Source: Streptococcus chenjunshii (lineage in GTDB: Bacteria; Bacillota; Bacilli; Lactobacillales; Streptococcaceae). From it: a DNA stretch of 64,000 nt. Under the pieces are notes generated by a model that saw only the letters and a list, made by a program, of their open reading frames with translations, did no database searches and was not told the DNA's origin. A program made the position numbers and the translations under genes. Each line of letters starts with the position of its first letter. The stretch's first letter is position 1. Positions 1 through 57,582 of the stretch are shown here, piece after piece. The stretch lies in assembly GCF_003086355.1 (NCBI RefSeq), contig NZ_CP031733.1, forward strand, positions 992,001-1,056,000. The letters are read 5' to 3'.

Positions 1-3000
1 ACTTTGTTGCTATCTGATATGTTAACTTATGAAGGAGCAACTCATGCACGATTTTCTGCAACAATGATAGAAAGGTATGAAGAACACCGTAAAGATTTGC
101 AGCGGTTAAAAGCTTTTTTCAGAAAAAACTTATCAAAGCAAGACTATCTTGATATGTTTGGGCAGAAAGTTGACGGCAAATTTGAATTTGATAAGAAAAT
201 TAAAAGCTATGCTAGCTATATTTCAAATCAAATGGAGTTATCTGATGAAGACAAAAAGAAGAATAAATCAAATCGACAACATTTCTATGATTATCTAGGA
301 AGTAAAATTTCTGATATAAAGGGGTCAGAATATTTCTTAGAAAAAATCGAAGCTGGGACTTTTCTTAGAAAATTGCGTACATCTGATAACGGTGCAATTC
401 CAAATCAAATTCATGAATATGAATTTAAAGCAATTATTGATAGACATGGAAAAGATTATCCATTTTTGTTAGAAAATAAAGAGAAGTTGATATCTATTTT
501 GACATTTAGAATCCCATATTTTGTTGGCCCATTATCAAAAGGTAATAGTAGCCGATTTGGTTGGGTTCAGCGAAAAGAACATCCAGAGATTTTAGACAAT
601 GATGACATTGATACAAAAAATGGAAATATTAGGCCATGGAATTATGATAGATTAATTGATATGGACGCAACTAGAGATGAGTTCATCAATAACCTTATTG
701 GAAATGATGTCGTTCTACTGAATGAAAAAGTTTTGCCTAAACGTAGTTTAGTATATGAAGAGGTAATGCTCCAAAATGAATTAACACGAGTCAAGTATAA
801 GGACAAAACAGGGAGATCTAATTACTTAGATGCTGAATCAAGGAAACAAATCATTGGCGATTTATTTAAGACTAATAGTAAGCGTATTAGTTCACAAGAT
901 TTACTTGATTATCTACAAAAGTACACTAATTTAAATGCTGTTGAGATTATTGCTGGTATTGAAAAAGGGAAATCTTTTAATGCTGTTTTGAAAACTTATA
1001 ATGACTTTAAAACGATTTTTTCAAGAGATTTTTTAGATAATGAGGAGCATCAAAAAGAATTGGAAGAAATCATTAAGGTTATCACGGTTTTTGATGATAA
1101 AAAATCCATCAAAGATTACCTTGAAAAATATTTTGGTAATCTAGATTTCTTAAATGAAGAGCAAATTAATCAGCTTTCCAAATTACGGTATACAGGATGG
1201 GGAAGGTACTCTGCGAAACTTCTATTAGAGATTCGTGATGATGACACAGGTTTTAACTTGTTACAATTTATCCGAAATGACGATAGAAATCGGAATTTAT
1301 TACAACTTATTTCTGATGGTGAGCTTTCTTTTGATCAAAAAATAAAACATATTCAATCTGAAAAATTAGCTGAAGATGATGTATTTGAAGAAATTAAGAA
1401 ACTAGCAGGTAGCCCGGCGCTAAAACGTGGTATATTAAATAGTATTAAAATTGTAGATGAGTTGGTTAAATTTATAGGTTATCCACCTCAAAATATTGTG
1501 ATTGAAATGGCTCGTGAAAACATGACAACTGAGGAAGGAAAAAGAAAATCAAAGTCACGTAAAGATAAATTAGAAGCAGTATTGAAAAAAACTGAAAATG
1601 ACTTATTGATAGGAAGTGGTAAAGATAAAAAGTTACCATTTTCAAATGAACAGCTACAATCTGATAAGTTATACTTGTTTTGTCTACAAAAAGCGAAAGA
1701 CATGTACTCTTTAGATGAATCAGGAAATCCTGAGCCCCTATATTTAAATCAATTAGATGAGTATGAAGTAGATCATATTATCCCTTATAGCTATTTACCG
1801 ATTGATTCCATTGATAATAAAGTTTTGACACGTCGTTCTAATAACCAATCTAAATTGGACAATATACCAGATAAAAAAACAGTTTTTGAAATGAAATCAT
1901 TTTGGGAACAACTTTACGAGGATAAACTGATTTCTCAAGTTAAATTTCAGCGTTTAACAACCAGTGAGCGAACCCCTGACGGTGTTTTGACTGAGGATAT
2001 GAAAGCAGGTTTTATTGAGCGCCAATTAGTTGAGACACGTCAGATTATTAAACATGTTGCTCGACTATTAAATGAACGATTTACAGAAAGTCAAATTGTT
2101 ACTTTGAAATCACAACTTGTTTCTAATTTTAGAAATATGTTTCACATTGTAAAATTACGTGATTTAAATGATTATCATCATGCACATGATGCTTATTTAA
2201 ACGTTGTTATAGGACAAACTCTGTTGAAAGCTTATCCTAAATTGGCACCAGAGTTGATATATGGACGTTATGGTAAGTTTAATCGTCATAAAGAAAATAA
2301 AGCAACATTAAAGAAGCATATTTATTCAAATGTGATGAAATTTTTCAACAATCCAGATTCTAAAATTAATAAAGATATTTGGTGTTGTGACAGAGACTTA
2401 CCAATAGTCAAGAATGTTATTTATAATACTCAGATTAATTTTGTGAAACGGACTATGATTAAAAAAGGCGGTTTTTATAATCAAAATCCTGTTGGGAAAA
2501 CAAGTAAAAGAATTGCAGCAGCAAATCGTTATCCACTCAAAACTAAAGGTGTAGTTTTAAATCCTGAAATCTATGGAGGATACGGTCCAGTAAATTCTGC
2601 GATGTCAGTTTTTGTAGTTGCAGAAAAATATAACAAAAAGAAATCGAAATTAGAAACTGTTAAAGAATTTCAGGATATTTATATCATTGATTATCCTAAA
2701 TTCAAAGAAAATCCAATGTTGTTTTTAAATGATTCTTCTGAACATGGATTTTTAACTAAAAATAATTTAAATCGTGTTTTATTTTTTAAGAAACTACCTA
2801 AATATTCATTAATGCAAAAGGTTGACGGAACAAAAGTGTTATTTGAAAGTAAAACAAACCTCCATAAAGCAACACAGTTTAAACTAACTGAAGTGCAGAG
2901 TGAGTTGTTTTTCCATATGAAACGTCTTTTAACCAAATCAAATTTGATGAATTTGAAATCAGAAGAAGCGGTTACTGAAAGTCAGAATTATGTAATTAAT

Positions 3001-3354
3001 CATGCTGAAGAGTTCGAAATTATTGTTCATCGTCTATTTTCCTATGCTGAAAAGCAATTAGGAAATAAGAACGTTTTTAAGAAAGCGATAGTCGCTTATA
3101 CTAAACGAAAATATCAAAAGATTGATTTAACTGAGGAAGTTATCAAATATTATTATGATAACTTTATGAAATTATTTTCTTTAGTTAAGAGTGGAAGTAG
3201 CAGCGGATATGTAAGACTATTTGAAAGCTCAAAAATACGAAATGCCAATTACAGTCCGACTAAAAAAGAAGTTAGTGCCACCCTCATCCACCAATCTATA
3301 ACTGGGCTTTATGAAACCCGTATTGATTTAAGTCAATTAGGAGAAGACAAATGA
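1..3354 (+). CDS. cas9: Cas9, type II-A CRISPR effector nuclease (5' truncated by the window edge)
   Basis: RNA-guided DNA endonuclease of the type II-A system. The frame is open from the first base, and the first visible residues align by eye with about residue 305 of SpCas9, so roughly 300 N-terminal residues (RuvC-I, bridge helix) lie outside. Counting from base 4, Ruv[11 protein letters not shown] has Glu at about 501, the HNH motif VDHIIP has His at about 591, Ruv[14 protein letters not shown] has Asp at about 729, and the conserved end [20 protein letters not shown] is present. The PAM-interacting end differs from SpCas9: the R1333/R1335 positions read as Asn at about 1080 and 1082. The stop overlaps the cas1 start (ATGA), so the cas genes form one operon. 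The gene is more AT-rich than the housekeeping genes. The TTG at base 4 is not a real start. The tracrRNA is not in the window. Confidence 0.97.
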
Positions 3355-4220
3355 GCGGTTGGCGTACAGTTGTTGTAAATACACATTCAAAGTTAGCATA
3401 TAAAAATAATCATTTGATTTTTAAAGAGGCTTCTCGGACAGAATTAATCCATCTGTCCGAGATAGATATTCTTTTGCTGGAGACGACAGATATTGTTTTG
3501 TCAACTATGCTGCTAAAGCGTTTAGTTGATGAAAATATTTTGGTTATTTTTTGTGATGACAAACGATTTCCGATTGCTAATTTGATGCCGCTGTCCGCCC
3601 GGCATGATTCCAGTTTGCAGTTAGCGAGGCAGGTGGCTTGGACCGAAGATGTTAAAGCTGATGTTTGGACTAATATTATTGCTCAGAAAATTTTGAATCA
3701 AAGTTTATACCTTAGTGAGTGCTCTTTCTTTGAGAAATCTCAGTCTATTATGGATTTATACCATGGTCTGGAGCTGTTTGATCCAAGCAATCGTGAAGGA
3801 CATTCTGCGAGGATATATTTCAATACCTTATTTGGCAATGATTTTTCACGGGAACAGGATAATGATATTAACGCGGGTCTTGATTATGGTTATACCTTAC
3901 TTTTGAGCATGTTTGCGCGTGAAGTTGTTGTTTCCGGTTGTATGACACAATTTGGTCTCAAGCATGCCAATCAGTTTAATCAATTTAACCTTGCCAGTGA
4001 TATTATGGAACTTTTTCGTCCTATTGTTGACCGTATTGTTTATGAGAATCGCAATAGCTCATTTATCAAAATAAAGCGGGAACTGTTCAGCATGTTTTCA
4101 GATACCTACCTTTACAACAGCAAAGCAATGTATTTATCTAACATTGTCAGCGATTATACCAAAAAGGTAGTAAAGGCTCTTAATAATAATGGGAAAGGAG
4201 TTCCTGAGTTTAGGATATGA
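3351..4220 (+). CDS. cas1: Cas1, spacer integrase
   Basis: Metal-dependent integrase that, with Cas2, inserts new spacers at the leader end of the array. At 289 aa it is the normal type II-A length. The catalytic triad is visible and falls at the S. pyogenes positions: Glu149 in [11 protein letters not shown], His205 in GLKHANQF and Glu220 in ASDIMELF. The start ATG overlaps the cas9 stop by four bases and the end overlaps the cas2 start by four bases, indicating translational coupling. No frameshift or missing catalytic residue is seen, so adaptation should be intact. Confidence 0.97.
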
Positions 4221-4561
4221 GTTATCGATATATGCGAATGCTTTTAATGTTTGATTTGCCAACCGATACGGCTGAGGAGCGGAGGGCTTATCGTAAGTTT
4301 CGAAAATTTTTACTGAGTGAAGGATTTATTATGCATCAGTTTTCAATTTACAGTAAGCTGTTGCTTAATAATTCTGCTAATAAGGCTATGATTGACCGTC
4401 TGCAGGAGAATAATCCTAAAAAAGGGAACATTACACTATTGACTGTTACAGAAAAACAGTTTGCTCGAATGATTTATCTGCATGGTGACAGAGATACAAG
4501 TATTGCTAATACAGACAGCCGCTTAGTTTTTCTTGGGGAGGCTTACGATGCTGAAGATTAA
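4217..4561 (+). CDS. cas2: Cas2, adaptation complex subunit
   Basis: Ferredoxin-fold dimer that bridges two Cas1 dimers in the spacer integration complex. It has 114 aa, typical of type II-A Cas2. The N-terminus [10 protein letters not shown] carries the conserved first strand with its Asp, followed by [14 protein letters not shown] and the family segment [12 protein letters not shown]. It overlaps cas1 by four bases (ATGA) and its 3' end overlaps csn2 by 14 bases, so the four cas genes are one transcription unit. Confidence 0.95.
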
Positions 4562-5213
4562 TTTCCCTATTTTAGATGAGCCGCTTGTATTACAAAAAGG
4601 AACAATCTTGGCGGTTGAAGATGTTATGGTTTATGCCAGGTTAGTAAAGCTGTTTTACCAGTATGATGAAGCCAGTGAGCTTAAATTATTTGATGAGAAA
4701 TTAAAATCATTAAAAGAATCAGAGATTATGCTTGTCACTGATATTTTAGGTTACAATATCAATTCATCTGCTATGCTTAAACTCATTCATGCTGACTTAG
4801 AGGAGCAATTCAATGAAAAACCGGAAGTCAAAGCCATGATTGAAAAGTTGGCAGCTACAATAACAGAGCTAATTGCTTACGAATGTTTAGAAAACGAATT
4901 AGATCTGGAATATGACGAAATTACAATTCTAGAACTTATTAAAGTTTTGGGGGTAAAAGTAGAAACAAGCAGTGATACTGTTTTTGAAAAGTGCTTGGAA
5001 ATTTTACAAATTTATAAGTATCTTAGTAAAAAACGTTTGTTAGTCTTTATCAATAGCGGCTCCTATTTAACAAGAAAAGAGGTTAAAGAGCTGCTTGATT
5101 ATATTAGCTTAACCAACCAAACAGTCCTTTTTCTTGAACCGCGTAAGCTCTATGATTTTTCTCAGTATATTTTAGATAGAGACTATTTTTTAATTGATGG
5201 AATAAAGCATTAG
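4548..5213 (+). CDS. csn2: Csn2, type II-A adaptation protein
   Basis: Ring-forming, calcium-dependent DNA-end-binding protein needed for spacer acquisition in type II-A systems. From the ATG at 4548 it is 221 aa, matching the usual length of about 220. A GGGGAG ribosome binding site at 4535-4540 decides this start; a longer in-frame TTG at 4533 lies inside the Shine-Dalgarno and is unlikely. The start [15 protein letters not shown] and the acidic alpha/beta body (DYDE-rich, [20 protein letters not shown]) fit the family. It is the last cas gene and is followed by the leader, which marks the system as subtype II-A rather than II-C. Confidence 0.93.
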
Positions 5214-5428: not shown

Positions 5429-5596
5429 GTTTTAGAGCTGTGTTGTTTCGAATGGTTCCAAAACGTGTTTCTCGTCCTCAGCTTTTTAAAGTTTGTTTTA
5501 GAGCTGTGTTGTTTCGAATGGTTCCAAAACCTACACGGCCAATAGGAAAACCTACAGTAGGTTTTAGAGCTGTGTTATTTCGAATGGTTCCAAAGC
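5429..5596 (+). CRISPR. Type II-A CRISPR array, three repeats and two spacers
   Basis: Three 36-bp repeats at 5429-5464, 5495-5530 and 5561-5596 are separated by two 30-bp spacers (5465-5494, 5531-5560). Repeats 1 and 2 are identical (start GTTTTAGAGCTGTGTTG, end GGTTCCAAAAC). Repeat 3, the trailer end, has two changes: G to A at position 17 and AAAAC to AAAGC at the end. This is the usual decay pattern of the leader-distal repeat and fixes the polarity as leader to trailer on the plus strand. The repeat looks identical to the S. thermophilus CRISPR3 / S. mutans type as I remember it. The array is unusually short for a complete cas operon. Confidence 0.97.
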
Positions 5597-14150: not shown

Positions 14151-14266
14151 GGAACTGAACACGGCCTAAACGCTGCGAGAAAAAGACCGTCCTTTCTTGA
14201 GTCTTTAGTGACTCAGCGGTCGGACGCCTATTTTTTCTTTGCGTTCTTAACGGCCTTTATATCTTG
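14151..14266 (+). repeat. GAACACGGCC intergenic element, copy A1
   Basis: It begins GGAACTGAACACGGCCTAAA and ends ACGGCCTTTATATCTTG. The inner arms AACGC (14169-14173) and GCGTT (14241-14245) are complementary, flanked by GGCC on both sides (14163-14166, 14252-14255). The interior hairpin is GAGTC-TTTAGT-GACTC, followed by the conserved CCTATTTT. No coding potential seen. Confidence 0.8.
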
Positions 14267-14269
14267 TTT

Positions 14270-14487
14270 GAACTGAACACGGCCTAAAATCCTAGTGAAA
14301 GAGAGGAAGTCCGTCTTGGTGCGGTGACAGTCCAGAATAGCTCTAGCCGTAGCTGACTGAAGGCCTTGCCGTCTTGACAGACGACCGCACCCTTCTAGTC
14401 ATCTTGGCAGGGGTGCGTCAACGAAATCATAGATTTCTGGCTTACCGCCATTTTCATACGGATTTCTTAACGGCCTTTATATCTTGT
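14270..14487 (+). repeat. GAACACGGCC intergenic element, copy A2
   Basis: It begins GAACTGAACACGGCCTAAAA and ends ACGGCCTTTATATCTTG. The arms are AATCC (14288-14292) and GGATT (14460-14464), different from A1 but again complementary. The interior carries one copy of a unit of about 105 bp that is triplicated in the copy at 33147. The element ends about six bases before the GAGGGAG ribosome binding site of the DUF3737 gene. Confidence 0.8.
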
Positions 14488-23805: not shown

Positions 23806-23850
23806 CAGGATTTTAGACCGTGTTCAATTCCATCACGATACAAAAGCTCT
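23806..23850 (-). repeat. Remnant of the GAACACGGCC intergenic element
   Basis: On the minus strand the junction of two elements is preserved: TTTTGTATC, then GGAATTGAACACGG, then CTAAAATCC. It leads straight into the GGAGGT ribosome binding site of the damaged CPBP gene. Interior and right end are lost. Confidence 0.7.
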
Positions 23851-32716: not shown

Positions 32717-33142
32717 ATGGCAAAATTTGAAGAGATTAAAGATGGTCTTATTTTTCCGGTTGGAGATAAAAACACTGCTTATTCAGATGTTTTTACAGGC
32801 CAGTCTTATCTGCAGATGCTGACACAGGCCCCAGACGATCATTTTGGTGTTGGCAATGTCACCTTTGAGCCTGGCTGCCGCAATAATTGGCATGCTCATA
32901 TAAACGGCTACCAAATTCTTTTAGTGACAGGCGGTGAAGGGCTATATCAGGAAGAAGGACAGCCTGCAAGACTTTTGAAAGCAGGGGATGTTGTTTTGAC
33001 TCAAGACGGTGTCAAACACTGGCATGGAGCCACAAAAGACGCTTGGTTTACCCATGTAGCCATCACTGCAGGTCAGGCAGAATGGTTTGAAGCAGTAAAT
33101 GATCAGCAATACGAAGAAGCTAATCAAACAGCGAAATCATAA
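32717..33142 (+). CDS. Cupin-domain protein
   Basis: 141 aa from the ATG at 32717 (site AAAGGAG); the frame extends 16 codons further upstream, overlapping the promoter, and is rejected. Cupin motif 1 is NWHAHINGYQILLVTGGEG (two His plus Glu/Gln metal ligands) and motif 2 is GDVVLTQDGVKHWHGAT. The metal enzyme or binding role is unknown. Relatives of this short cupin often form an operon with carboxymuconolactone decarboxylase-like proteins; here that partner (33995) lies beyond 850 bp of repeat elements. Confidence 0.88.
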   Translation: MAKFEEIKDGLIFPVGDKNTAYSDVFTGQSYLQMLTQAPDDHFGVGNVTFEPGCRNNWHAHINGYQILLVTGGEGLYQEEGQPARLLKAGDVVLTQDGVKHWHGATKDAWFTHVAITAGQAEWFEAVNDQQYEEANQTAKS

Positions 33143-33146
33143 AAAT

Positions 33147-33569
33147 GGAACACGGCCTAAAATCCTAATGAAAAAGACGGAATTCGTCGCGATGTAGGGA
33201 TATTACAGAGCACCCCTAGCCGTAGACGTCTGAAGGCTTTGCCGTCTTAACAGCCGCCCGCACCCTTCTAGTCGTCCTGGCAGAGGTGCGTCTGCGAAAT
33301 CACAGATTTCGGACTTACCGTCAGCCGTAGACGTCTGAAGGCTTTGCCGTCTTAACAGCCGCCCGCACCCCTCTAGTCGTCTTGACAGAGGTGCGTCTGC
33401 GAAATCACAGATTTCGGACTTACCGTCAGCCGTAGACGTCTGAAGGCTTTGCCGTCTTAACAGCCGCCCGCACCCTTCTAGTCGTCTTGACAGAGGTGCG
33501 TCTGCGAAATCACAGATTTCGGACTTACCGTCATTTTCCTACGGATTTCTTAACGGCCTTTGTATCTTA
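33147..33569 (+). repeat. GAACACGGCC intergenic element, copy E1 (expanded)
   Basis: It begins GGAACACGGCCTAAAATCC five bases after the cupin stop and ends ACGGCCTTTGTATCTTA. The arms AATCC (33161-33165) and GGATT (33543-33547) pair, with flanking GGCC (33154-33157, 33555-33558). It is longer than the other copies because of an internal 105-bp triplication. Confidence 0.82.
33221..33533 (+). repeat. Three tandem 105-bp units inside element E1
   Basis: Units start CGTAGACGTCTGAAGGC at 33221, 33326 and 33431, with only a few substitutions between copies. Each contains the hairpin CGAAATC-ACA-GATTTCG and a GCACC/GGTGC stem. One diverged copy is present in element A2 (about 14347-14449). Confidence 0.92.
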
Positions 33570-33571
33570 TT

Positions 33572-33684
33572 GAACTGAACACGGCCTAAAATCCTAATGA
33601 AAAAGATGCCTGCCATCGTGATGCAAGAGCATCACTTGTCAGTCCCTATTTTCCTACGGATTTCTTAACGGCCTTTGTATCTTG
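33572..33684 (+). repeat. GAACACGGCC intergenic element, copy E2
   Basis: Starts GAACTGAACACGGCCTAAAA, ends ACGGCCTTTGTATCTTG. The arms AATCC (33590-33594) and GGATT (33658-33662) pair. The internal hairpin is GTGATGC-AAGA-GCATCAC (33618-33635), followed by GTCAG and CCTATTTT. Confidence 0.82.
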
Positions 33685-33686
33685 AT

Positions 33687-33863
33687 GAATTGAACACGGC
33701 CTAAACGCTTAAACGCTGTGAGAAAAAGAGACGCAGTCGTAGGAAGCGCAAGCTGACGTACGAATGTGGCTGCTCTGTGAGTATAGCCCTCCCTTGAGTC
33801 TTTAGTGACTCGGCGGTCAGGCTCCTATTTTCTCTTTGCGTTTTTAACGGCCTTTGTATCTTG
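33687..33863 (+). repeat. GAACACGGCC intergenic element, copy E3
   Basis: Starts GAATTGAACACGGCCTAAAC, ends ACGGCCTTTGTATCTTG. The arms AACGC (33704-33708, repeated once) and GCGTT (33838-33842) pair. The interior shares AGTCGTAGGAAGC and TGCTCTGTGAGTATA with the minus-strand copy near 57.5 kb and has the hairpin GAGTC-TTTAGT-GACTC. Confidence 0.82.
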
Positions 33864-33865
33864 TT

Positions 33866-33980
33866 GGAATTGAACACGGCCTAAGCTCTTTGCAAAAAAG
33901 ACAAAACTTCCTAGAAACTGAGGTTTCTTCGTCAGTTTTCCTATTTTTGCTGTGAGCTTTTCACGGCCTTTGTATCTTAT
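33866..33980 (+). repeat. GAACACGGCC intergenic element, copy E4
   Basis: Starts GGAATTGAACACGGCCTAAG, ends ACGGCCTTTGTATCTTA. The arms AAGCTC-TTT-GCAAAAA (33883-33898) and TTTTTGC-TGT-GAGCTT (33944-33959) pair over two blocks. The internal hairpin is GAAAC-TGA-GGTTTC. GAGGAGG, the ribosome binding site of the next gene, follows within a few bases. Confidence 0.82.
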
Positions 33981-33994
33981 GTGAGGAGGTTTTT

Positions 33995-34315
33995 ATGGCA
34001 GAGAAACAAACAGCAGGTCATGATCTTTTGGGAGCTTTTGCTCCTAAATTTGCAGAACTTAATGATGAGGTGCTTTTTGGGGAAGTTTGGTCCCGTGAAG
34101 AGGAACTGTCCCCTAAACTGCGGTCTATTGTAACCGTATCAGCTTTGGTCAGCGGCGGTAATCTGGAGCAGCTGGAGCATCACCTTCAGAGAGCTAAGGC
34201 TAATGGTGTTACAAAGGATGAAATAGCAGAAATTCTTACTCATCTGGCTTTTTATACCGGCTGGCCTAAAGCTTGGTCTGCTTTTAATCGTGCTAAAGAA
34301 ATTTGGACAGATTAG
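33995..34315 (+). CDS. Carboxymuconolactone decarboxylase family protein
   Basis: 106-aa helical AhpD-like-fold protein. Family pattern: FGEVWSREEELSPKLRSIVT, then LVSGGNLEQLEHHLQRAKAN, then EIAEILTHLAFYTGWPKAWS. The Glu and His of the EQLEHHL segment are the conserved polar residues; no CXXC peroxidatic pair is present, so it is not a classical AhpD. GAGGAGG precedes the ATG and itself follows directly on element E4. A terminator follows at 34347. Probably functionally tied to the cupin at 32717; substrate unknown. Confidence 0.9.
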   Translation: MAEKQTAGHDLLGAFAPKFAELNDEVLFGEVWSREEELSPKLRSIVTVSALVSGGNLEQLEHHLQRAKANGVTKDEIAEILTHLAFYTGWPKAWSAFNRAKEIWTD

Positions 34316-51956: not shown

Positions 51957-52322
51957 ATGCAGCTTAAGTTTTTTTCAGAACCTTTTTCGGTTTGCAAAGT
52001 AGAAGATTACAGCCAGGTTAATTGGGAACAACCCTATATTTTTACCGGTCAGACAGACGAAGAAAAATCTTTGGTCTGTCCGACTCGGTGCGTCCCGGTC
52101 AATACGACAGCGCGTGAGGACGGCTGGTCTGCTTTTCGTATTGAGGGAGAGCTGGATTTTTCGCTGATTGGGATTTTGGCGAAAATTTCTGGCCTGCTGG
52201 CAGATCAGGGTATCAGTATTTTTGCACTATCGACTTTTAACACTGACTACATCCTTATAAAAACCAATCAAGCGGCTGCAGCCAAAGAACTATTAAAAAA
52301 AGCCGGCTATGGTGTGGTGTAA
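51957..52322 (+). CDS. ACT domain protein
   Basis: 121 aa from the ATG at 51957, after GGAGGAG; an adjacent TTG could also serve. The N-terminal half (LKFFSEPFSVCKVEDYSQVN, then SLVCPTRCVPVNTTAREDGW) and C-terminal ACT half (FRIEGELDFSLIGILAKISG, LLADQGISIFALSTFNTDYI) match the small amino-acid-binding ACT_7-type proteins found alone in many bacteria. It probably senses an amino acid; no partner enzyme is adjacent. Confidence 0.85.
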   Translation: MQLKFFSEPFSVCKVEDYSQVNWEQPYIFTGQTDEEKSLVCPTRCVPVNTTAREDGWSAFRIEGELDFSLIGILAKISGLLADQGISIFALSTFNTDYILIKTNQAAAAKELLKKAGYGVV

Positions 52323-52523
52323 AGTCTATTCATTAAGAAATGCTTTTTTCGTATTTGCTTTTTTAAACTGATTTGAAAAATGCTGCTGTCTTCAGTTTTT
52401 TTGATATATCGGCAGAGTACTGTTTAGAATTTTGAAAAACATTGAGCTTAGCTACAATGTTTTTTTGAGTTTATAATGAAAAAATGATCCCTTAATTATT
52501 AAAAAATTATTCTTAAAATAGTT

Positions 52524-52748
52524 TTAGTTTTGTTTACCATTTTTAATAAGCGGCAGCATAAAATAATACAAATTGCCTAACTGCCCTTGATAATGGATCT
52601 CTTGATTTTGATAAAGAACTTTGGTTACTTTGAAATGGTCTTGAAAAGGCGGCCACATAGCAACCATCCCTTGTACAAATAAATCGTGACTGTCATAGTG
52701 CAGCTGGTGTTCAGAGTTATAATCATCTAAATAATAAATATCAATCAT
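52524..52748 (-). CDS. DUF4649 family small protein
   Basis: 74 aa: MIDIYYLDDYNSEHQLHYDS start, VTKVLYQNQEIHYQGQLGNL end. Paralogue of the gene at 42834. It lies 12 bp after the flavin oxidoreductase gene on the same strand, with AGAGGGTAAT before its ATG, so it is the second gene of that operon. Function unknown; the pairing with an OYE enzyme could mean a small accessory role. Confidence 0.7.
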   Translation of the reverse strand: MIDIYYLDDYNSEHQLHYDSHDLFVQGMVAMWPPFQDHFKVTKVLYQNQEIHYQGQLGNLYYFMLPLIKNGKQN

Positions 52749-57399: not shown

Positions 57400-57417
57400 G
57401 ACAATCTCCTTTAATTA

Positions 57418-57582
57418 AGATACAAAAGCCGTAAAAAGAGCAAAGCAAAAATAGGAAAATGGGTGAAGAGCCGCTAAGACTCAAGGAAATTTTATACTCA
57501 CAGAGCAGCTACACTCGTAAGTCGCTTAAGCTTCCTACGATTGTGGCTCTTTTTGACACAGCGTTTAGGATGTGTTCAATTG
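57418..57582 (-). repeat. GAACACGGCC intergenic element, minus-strand copy
   Basis: On the minus strand it starts CAATTGAACACATCCTAAAC and ends ACGGCTTTTGTATCTT. The interior shares TCGTAGGAAGC and GCTGCTCTGTGAGTATA with copy E3, plus CTTGAGTC. The arms (AAACGC on the left, GCTTTGCTC on the right) no longer pair well and GGCC is mutated at both ends, so this copy appears older or degraded. It ends just before the TetR ribosome binding site. Confidence 0.75.

Follow-up and report, generated by a model that had tools for sequence, protein, structure and literature searches.

Hairpin-forming repeats of Streptococcus: a very large genus-wide family frequently placed beside Shine–Dalgarno sequences

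Four intergenic elements stand head to tail between two genes in the 64,000-nt stretch of streptococcal DNA analysed here, hereafter called the window. Their ends are shared and their inner arms differ between copies, which raises the question of what such elements are, at which level their fold is maintained and how they come to stand where they do. An initial annotation of this DNA had read the paired changes in the arms as the signature of selection on a folded RNA or single-stranded DNA, and knew no named family with these ends. We find that the array belongs to a very large, genus-wide family of hairpin-forming repeats of about 110 bases.

The array and its family

The array spans positions 33148–33978 of the + strand, with a cupin gene on its 5′ side and a carboxymuconolactone decarboxylase gene on its 3′ side (Table 1). 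Its organisation proved to be as first described, i.e., an intergenic array of four elements with shared ends, inner arms that each pair with their own partner, and inner hairpins. E1 is 421 nt long because three 105-nt tandem repeats lie inside it, and its left flank is without the GAAYT part present in the other elements. Folding z-scores are −2.46 for E4 and −2.80 for E2. The 13-nt left end occurs at eight places in the window (up to 2 mismatches), compared with 0.95 expected, and 0 of 100 shuffles reach eight; lone end-like pieces lie at 23813 (−) and 28651 (+). Two CRISPR direct repeats (Rfam CRISPR-DR22) are also present in the window, at 5429–5530 (−), near long + strand open reading frames at 4–5213 whose sequences resemble type II Cas9, Cas1, Cas2 and Csn2.

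Table 1. Positions, in window coordinates, of the array elements, their neighbours and the further copies.
Feature	Positions	Strand	Length (nt)	Covariance-model score (bits)	Remarks
Upstream gene, cupin domain protein	32717–33142	+			PF07883
E1	33148–33568	+	421		Core GAACACGG..TTTGTATCTT, long interior
Three tandem modules within E1	33218–33533	+	105 each		97–98% identical; BOX-like interior expansion
E2	33577–33683	+	107	85.6	Stems GGCC/GGCC and AAATCC/GGATTT, plus inner hairpin
E3	33692–33862	+	171	62.9	Interior enlarged
E4	33872–33978	+	107	119.7	Canonical; last of the array
Shine–Dalgarno (SD) sequence, AGGAGG region	33984–33990	+			Directly 3′ of the last right end
Downstream gene, carboxymuconolactone decarboxylase family	33995–34315	+			PF02627
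Further copy	14157–14265	+	109		Head-to-tail with the copy at 14275
Further copy	14275–14485	+	211		Interior enlarged
Further copy	57417–57577	−	161		Followed on its own strand by AATTAAAGGAG and ATG

Beyond the window, the 16-nt right end is found at 477 places in the same 2.44-Mb genome (247 on the + strand and 230 on the − strand, up to 2 mismatches), compared with one place for a reversed control. With at most 1 mismatch, it is present in 215 of 284 Streptococcus genomes, at more than 400 places in two of them. From an alignment (A1) of 24 copies taken from the window and other genomes we built a covariance model, R1, and the search of streptococcal genomes that the initial annotation had proposed gave matches in 277 of the 284 at E<=1e-6, with 13 candidates per genome scored under strict filters. 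The seven genomes in which the 13 scored candidates gave no R1 match at this threshold are G029, G030, G082, G137, G235, G238 and G282. When 150 candidates were scored in each of 14 chosen genomes, the matches numbered 23 to 150 per genome. Among the matches listed, the carriers include S. mitis, S. oralis, S. pneumoniae, S. suis, S. sanguinis, S. gallolyticus, S. ratti and S. uberis.

Across the order, 52 of 198 genomes match R1 at E<=1e-3, comprising 27 Streptococcus genomes and 25 from other genera, many of the latter with one or few weak matches. Tandem arrays of distant relatives appear in other families of the order, at G292 C1:3175–4143 and 52155–52748 and at G347 C8:741820–742170; these are model matches only, with a spacing of about 120 nt and E values of about 5e-9 to 3e-5. 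Element lengths in the stretches examined from genomes G000 and G138 peak in the bins 100–124, 150–174 and 200–224 nt. A search for possible autonomous copies gave 22 longer spans from a left end to a right end, of 338–5117 nt.

Fold, covariation and kinds of mismatch

The element folds as a single long hairpin, in which basal pairs ACA/TGT are followed by a 4-bp stem, three inner stems and a terminal hairpin. The 4-bp stem occurs as GGCC/GGCC, GGGC/GCCC, GCCC/GGGC or GACC/GGTC, and the stems are separated by conserved unpaired motifs, e.g., AGAYA opposite CCTA. Two-sided changes are seen at 21 of 28 pairs, with a covariation score of 0.512 compared with 0.166 in shuffles (0/500) and at most 0.119 in slid structures. 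An alignment of 121 distinct named-species copies, fitted to the model, shows covariation at 26 of the 28 pairs and has 93.6% of its cells paired. The compensatory change of the arms, whose absence from a wider alignment the initial annotation had named as grounds for giving up its reading, thus holds on wide alignments.

One transition turns a Watson–Crick pair into G·U and the other turns it into A·C, and selection at the level of RNA tolerates the first and not the second. Comparison of the two counts is a simple test that separates DNA-level from RNA-level covariation. In RNase P RNA from Streptococcus (20 rows, RNAalifold structure) we counted 253 G·U and 3 A·C in 2049 cells, or 173:3 at variable pairs. 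Streptococcus SRP RNA (28 distinct rows), which is more conserved than the element, gave 105 G·U and 0 A·C in 644 cells, with 83 of the 105 in three nearly invariant pairs and 22 in variable pairs.

The element behaves differently from these controls. The 1360 cells of the dnaJ-site copies (49 distinct rows) comprise 1297 Watson–Crick pairs, 17 G·U, 14 A·C and 32 others. Copies from named species have 65 G·U vs. 72 A·C in 3272 cells, and the 53 distinct rows among the best 60 of them have 9 vs. 14 in 1477. The counts are 53 vs. 33 in 2584 cells (1.6-fold) in a mixed set and 136 vs. 57 in 3781 (2.4-fold) in the G000/G138 set, where a single pair contributes 46 of the 136 G·U. The ratio of G·U to A·C across the element sets therefore ranges from 0.6 to 2.4, the counts resting on model-guided alignments in which the unit is the sequence and not the substitution event. 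By Fisher's test, again with sequences and not events counted, the dnaJ copies differ from the variable pairs of RNase P RNA (173:3) at 7e-11 and from those of SRP RNA (22:0) at 1e-4. An excess of G·U far above A·C at paired columns, as expected from RNA-level selection, is thus not seen in the element. Of the original proposal of a folded RNA or single-stranded DNA, the compensatory change stands, and a fold at the DNA level is favoured over RNA because the ratio lies far below that of the Streptococcus RNA controls (0.6–2.4 vs. at least 84-fold). On these alignments, the better reading of the low ratio is that it points to folded DNA more than to RNA.

Placement, insertion and split start sites

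Measured from the final right end, an SD-like motif first appears after 3–6 nt in 122 of the 199 cases from stretches of G000 and in 35 of the 62 from G138, compared with about 3.6% at random points; no SD motif occurs within 30 nt in 60 of the 199 and 14 of the 62, respectively. The array in the window follows the SD-adjacent placement, and elements are often co-oriented with the gene. The 338 distinct flanks of the mixed set comprise 137 taken to lead into a next element, 90 with an SD after the element, 12 with an ATG nearby and 99 with neither, so that, where sought, SD and ATG are both missing from 99 of the 201 flanks without a next element; these classes omit most dnaJ copies, since ATGAACAATAC of dnaJ was counted as a next element. 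SD adjacency is frequent, not universal. In 17 of the best 27 loci, e.g., L189 at 1501–1607, a near-identical copy lies antisense directly after a stop codon assigned to rpsO, the family assignment having been checked at one locus.

Two sites allow an insertion to be read exactly. (i) At a phage site, of 27 listed records, 11 cover a 1201-base query completely and the other 16 align to 91% of it as two pieces, and alignment of three filled with five empty records places a 112-nt insertion immediately 5′ of the tape-measure gene's SD tract, where no more than GG is duplicated. Eleven IMG/VR contigs carry the element at this same tape-measure site, one of them being truncated at its end. (ii) At a chromosomal site, G000 carries an array directly 5′ of the SD and G138 is empty, its aatcagt running directly into aaaaggag, with 0–1 nt ambiguous. 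At these two sites, the only clean empty ones, insertion is strand-oriented and without a clear target duplication (0–2 nt ambiguous); seven other apparent empty sites were too diverged for exact reading. Among 92 singletons, 400 combinations of k-mer length and offset gave weak excesses only as regards target duplication (at best 4 vs. 0.5 and 19 vs. 9.0). Two element queries returned no further phage sites, and one query of plasmids gave one partial match.

Within arrays, the junctions measure 6–10 nt in 156 of the 158 element pairs that lie less than 40 nt apart. In G098, the array before dapB (L391, 62–622) alternates two unit types over five scored units, with a further unit upstream; in G130, the same place before dapB holds two scored units and a remnant. 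Arrays thus change by tandem duplication or loss as well.

At dnaJ the element lies between the two halves of the translation start, in the order SD, element, ATG. Its right-end motif GTATCTT precedes the ATG of dnaJ by 2–9 nt in 208 of the 284 genomes, a count of the right end only, with the full element checked in a subset of loci. Of 55 dnaJ-site copies chosen by an ATG within 10 nt, 51 have AAAGG at 4–22 nt on the 5′ side of the element. Throughout the genus, the dnaJ copy appears to have been retained or renewed time and again. This arrangement recurs at deoD, era and parC, and the mixed set has six SD–element–ATG rows, one of which (L286) is not a gene start.

The distance from AAAGG to ATG is 107–133 nt in 48 distinct dnaJ leaders. 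In only 3 of these 48 does the predicted minimum-energy fold keep both SD and ATG accessible, separated by 8 unpaired nt, which weakens the idea that the hairpin bridges the two. In 34 leaders the SD is predicted to be base-paired or enclosed; its mean unpaired probability is 0.59 and exceeds 0.5 in 29. Of three start-site copies folded separately, one resembles a bridge. From these predictions, the dnaJ fold may bridge SD and AUG or may hide the SD as a means of control. In dnaJ leaders (e.g., L173) and at era (L341), the left-end GAACAC can also pair with a GTGTTC lying upstream, in competition with the basal pairs, and this might provide a switch between alternative folds. The fold predicted for dnaJ leader L449 pairs the SD's AAGG with UCUU at the right end, and the conserved right end may thereby influence access to the SD.

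Mechanism, rival readings and known systems

With a little more than even confidence, we propose that the elements form a genus-wide family of short non-coding repeats whose likely mode of spread is as a folded DNA hairpin, with a preference for insertion next to SD sequences in the orientation of the gene. An enzyme would recognise the folded DNA, either as a single strand or as a cruciform with the conserved internal loops, and would join it to a purine-rich SD tract, and arrays would grow through further rounds of joining or through tandem duplication. In most cases the host would tolerate an element upstream of the SD as additional 5′ leader, and where a copy separates the SD from the start codon (dnaJ, deoD, era and parC) translation would come to depend on the fold of that copy in the mRNA. 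Two modes could operate at such split sites: SD and AUG would be brought together, or the SD would be hidden and released. A bolder version, which we hold tentatively and at clearly less than even confidence, sees a class of mobile DNA hairpin not described before that homes to the SD throughout the genus (and, as the distant tandem relatives suggest, in other families of the order too), that by virtue of its own fold can even come between ribosome-binding site and start codon without shutting the gene off, and that became a genus-wide leader element of dnaJ.

As a mover we considered the Y1 transposase (PF01797), which is found in 168 of 284 genomes at E<=1e-8; none was detected in G001, which has 148 element matches. 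This candidate was rejected, since the distribution of PF01797 does not track the abundance of the element.

If the proposal is true, the translation start itself is the favoured target of a non-coding repeat that is very common in a well-studied genus. The movement of BOX-like streptococcal repeats would also become open to testing, now that arrays, clean empty sites and genomes in which no copy was detected have been catalogued. The layout at dnaJ permits a direct reporter test of the ribosome against a mobile hairpin between SD and AUG.

Other explanations account for parts of the evidence. The elements could be structured regulatory RNAs, i.e., leaders, possibly SD-hiding thermosensors, or processing sites, that were duplicated over time and whose covariation is driven by selection on RNA. 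Frequent co-orientation with genes, adjacency to the SD, retention of the dnaJ right end in 208 of 284 genomes, the SD paired or enclosed in 34 of 48 predicted leader folds and the 1.6- and 2.4-fold excess of G·U over A·C in two sets are all consistent with such RNAs. We nevertheless consider them an unlikely explanation, since G·U and A·C are about equal at dnaJ and in named species as against 84:1 in RNase P RNA, since some genomes hold hundreds of copies, and since copies occur in phage and antisense at rpsO. The near equality of the two mismatches is, in turn, what would be predicted if DNA polymerase template switching (quasi-palindrome correction), and not selection, kept the arms of a parasitic BOX-like repeat complementary, a process that yields Watson–Crick pairs without a preference for G·U and that, in the accessible text of PMC8604942, is described as homogenising inverted-repeat arms. 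However, the internal loops AGAYA/CCTA are mostly unpaired and yet conserved within the same arms, and dnaJ copies show single-pair changes alone as well as several kinds of mismatch, which leaves template switching a doubtful, though serious, contender. Gene orientation, clean insertion, covarying structure and the SD–element–ATG layout would also suit an intron-like, spliced RNA whose removal from the mRNA restores the SD–AUG spacing at dnaJ. We regard this as very improbable, given that Rfam offers no match and that the 116 arrays from the stretches of G000 and G138 include no clear case within a coding sequence; 16 sense entries among these arrays have reading frames open on both sides, which we read as probably neighbouring genes.

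It is also conceivable, though we rather doubt it, that the elements represent a diverged lineage within the BOX superfamily of streptococci, for instance of the S. suis boxE/boxF type, and hence known in kind; a putative kinship with boxE, boxF or RepSU1 of S. suis was judged by description. The modular tandem-repeat interior between fixed ends, the extensive hairpin and the intergenic position that the accessible part of PMC3049150 describes for BOX would all fit. On the other side, R1 has no match over three pneumococcal BOX copies, the ends differ, and the same text portrays BOX as almost absent beyond S. pneumoniae and S. mitis, S. suis having related elements, as against an element found in 277 of 284 genomes (PMC3049150).

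Comparison with Rfam and with pneumococcal BOX copies agrees with the initial annotation, which knew no named family with these ends. Rfam 15 gave no match over an element in the window or in seven further loci. With its filters off, R1 gave no match over copies in L245, L248 and L249 that we took to be pneumococcal BOX, its best matches there scoring at most 18 bits and lying elsewhere in the loci; identity with BOX, as judged by the model, was therefore rejected. A search of the literature by titles and abstract openings, and by end-sequence strings among the matches listed, found no description of the element, with subscription papers thinly covered.

Like MITEs, the elements are non-coding, dispersed, folded and likely moved in trans; unlike them, their ends are not an ordinary terminal inverted repeat and the duplication at the phage site is at most 2 nt. 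Elements of the IS200/IS605 and REP/RAYT groups insert without target duplication and in a specific orientation, their hairpins being recognised as single-stranded DNA. The present element shares with them, at the two sites read, the insertion without clear target duplication and the orientation, and AAAG on its bottom strand, directly at the foot of the hairpin, could pair with the SD complement. It differs in that one long hairpin spans the whole element and that PF01797 does not track it. Integron attC sites are recombination sites of folded DNA with conserved ends, freely covarying stems and tandem arrays. The element has such ends, stems and arrays as well, but no cassettes were seen at it and its junctions have no fixed R-box motif. 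For the split start sites, the nearest likeness is in phage T4, whose genes 38 and 25 are described, in the accessible part of PMC3014915, as using structure to bridge a split ribosome-binding site. There, too, structured sequence lies between SD and AUG; however, the T4 spacing is 22 or 27 nt, whereas the element is a dispersed repeat of about 107 nt whose predicted folds free SD and AUG in 3 of 48 cases.

Among intergenic repeats, the accessible texts name BOX, RUP and Stre-1 in S. pneumoniae and the family Efa-1 in E. faecalis (PMC2267715), and BOX and RUP in S. mitis B6 (PMC2828477). BOX of S. pneumoniae, boxA-(boxB)n-boxC, and the BOX-type elements of S. suis are likewise short, intergenic and present in many copies as long hairpins; as far as the available text of Croucher 2011 goes, BOX is almost absent outside S. 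pneumoniae and S. mitis, with related elements in S. suis (PMC3049150). The present family resembles BOX in having fixed ends with optional tandem modules inside. It is set apart by head-to-tail arrays of whole elements, frequent SD adjacency, genus-wide spread, different ends and the duplication of at most 2 nt at the phage site. The element shares the modular plan of BOX, with R1 giving no match over the pneumococcal copies.
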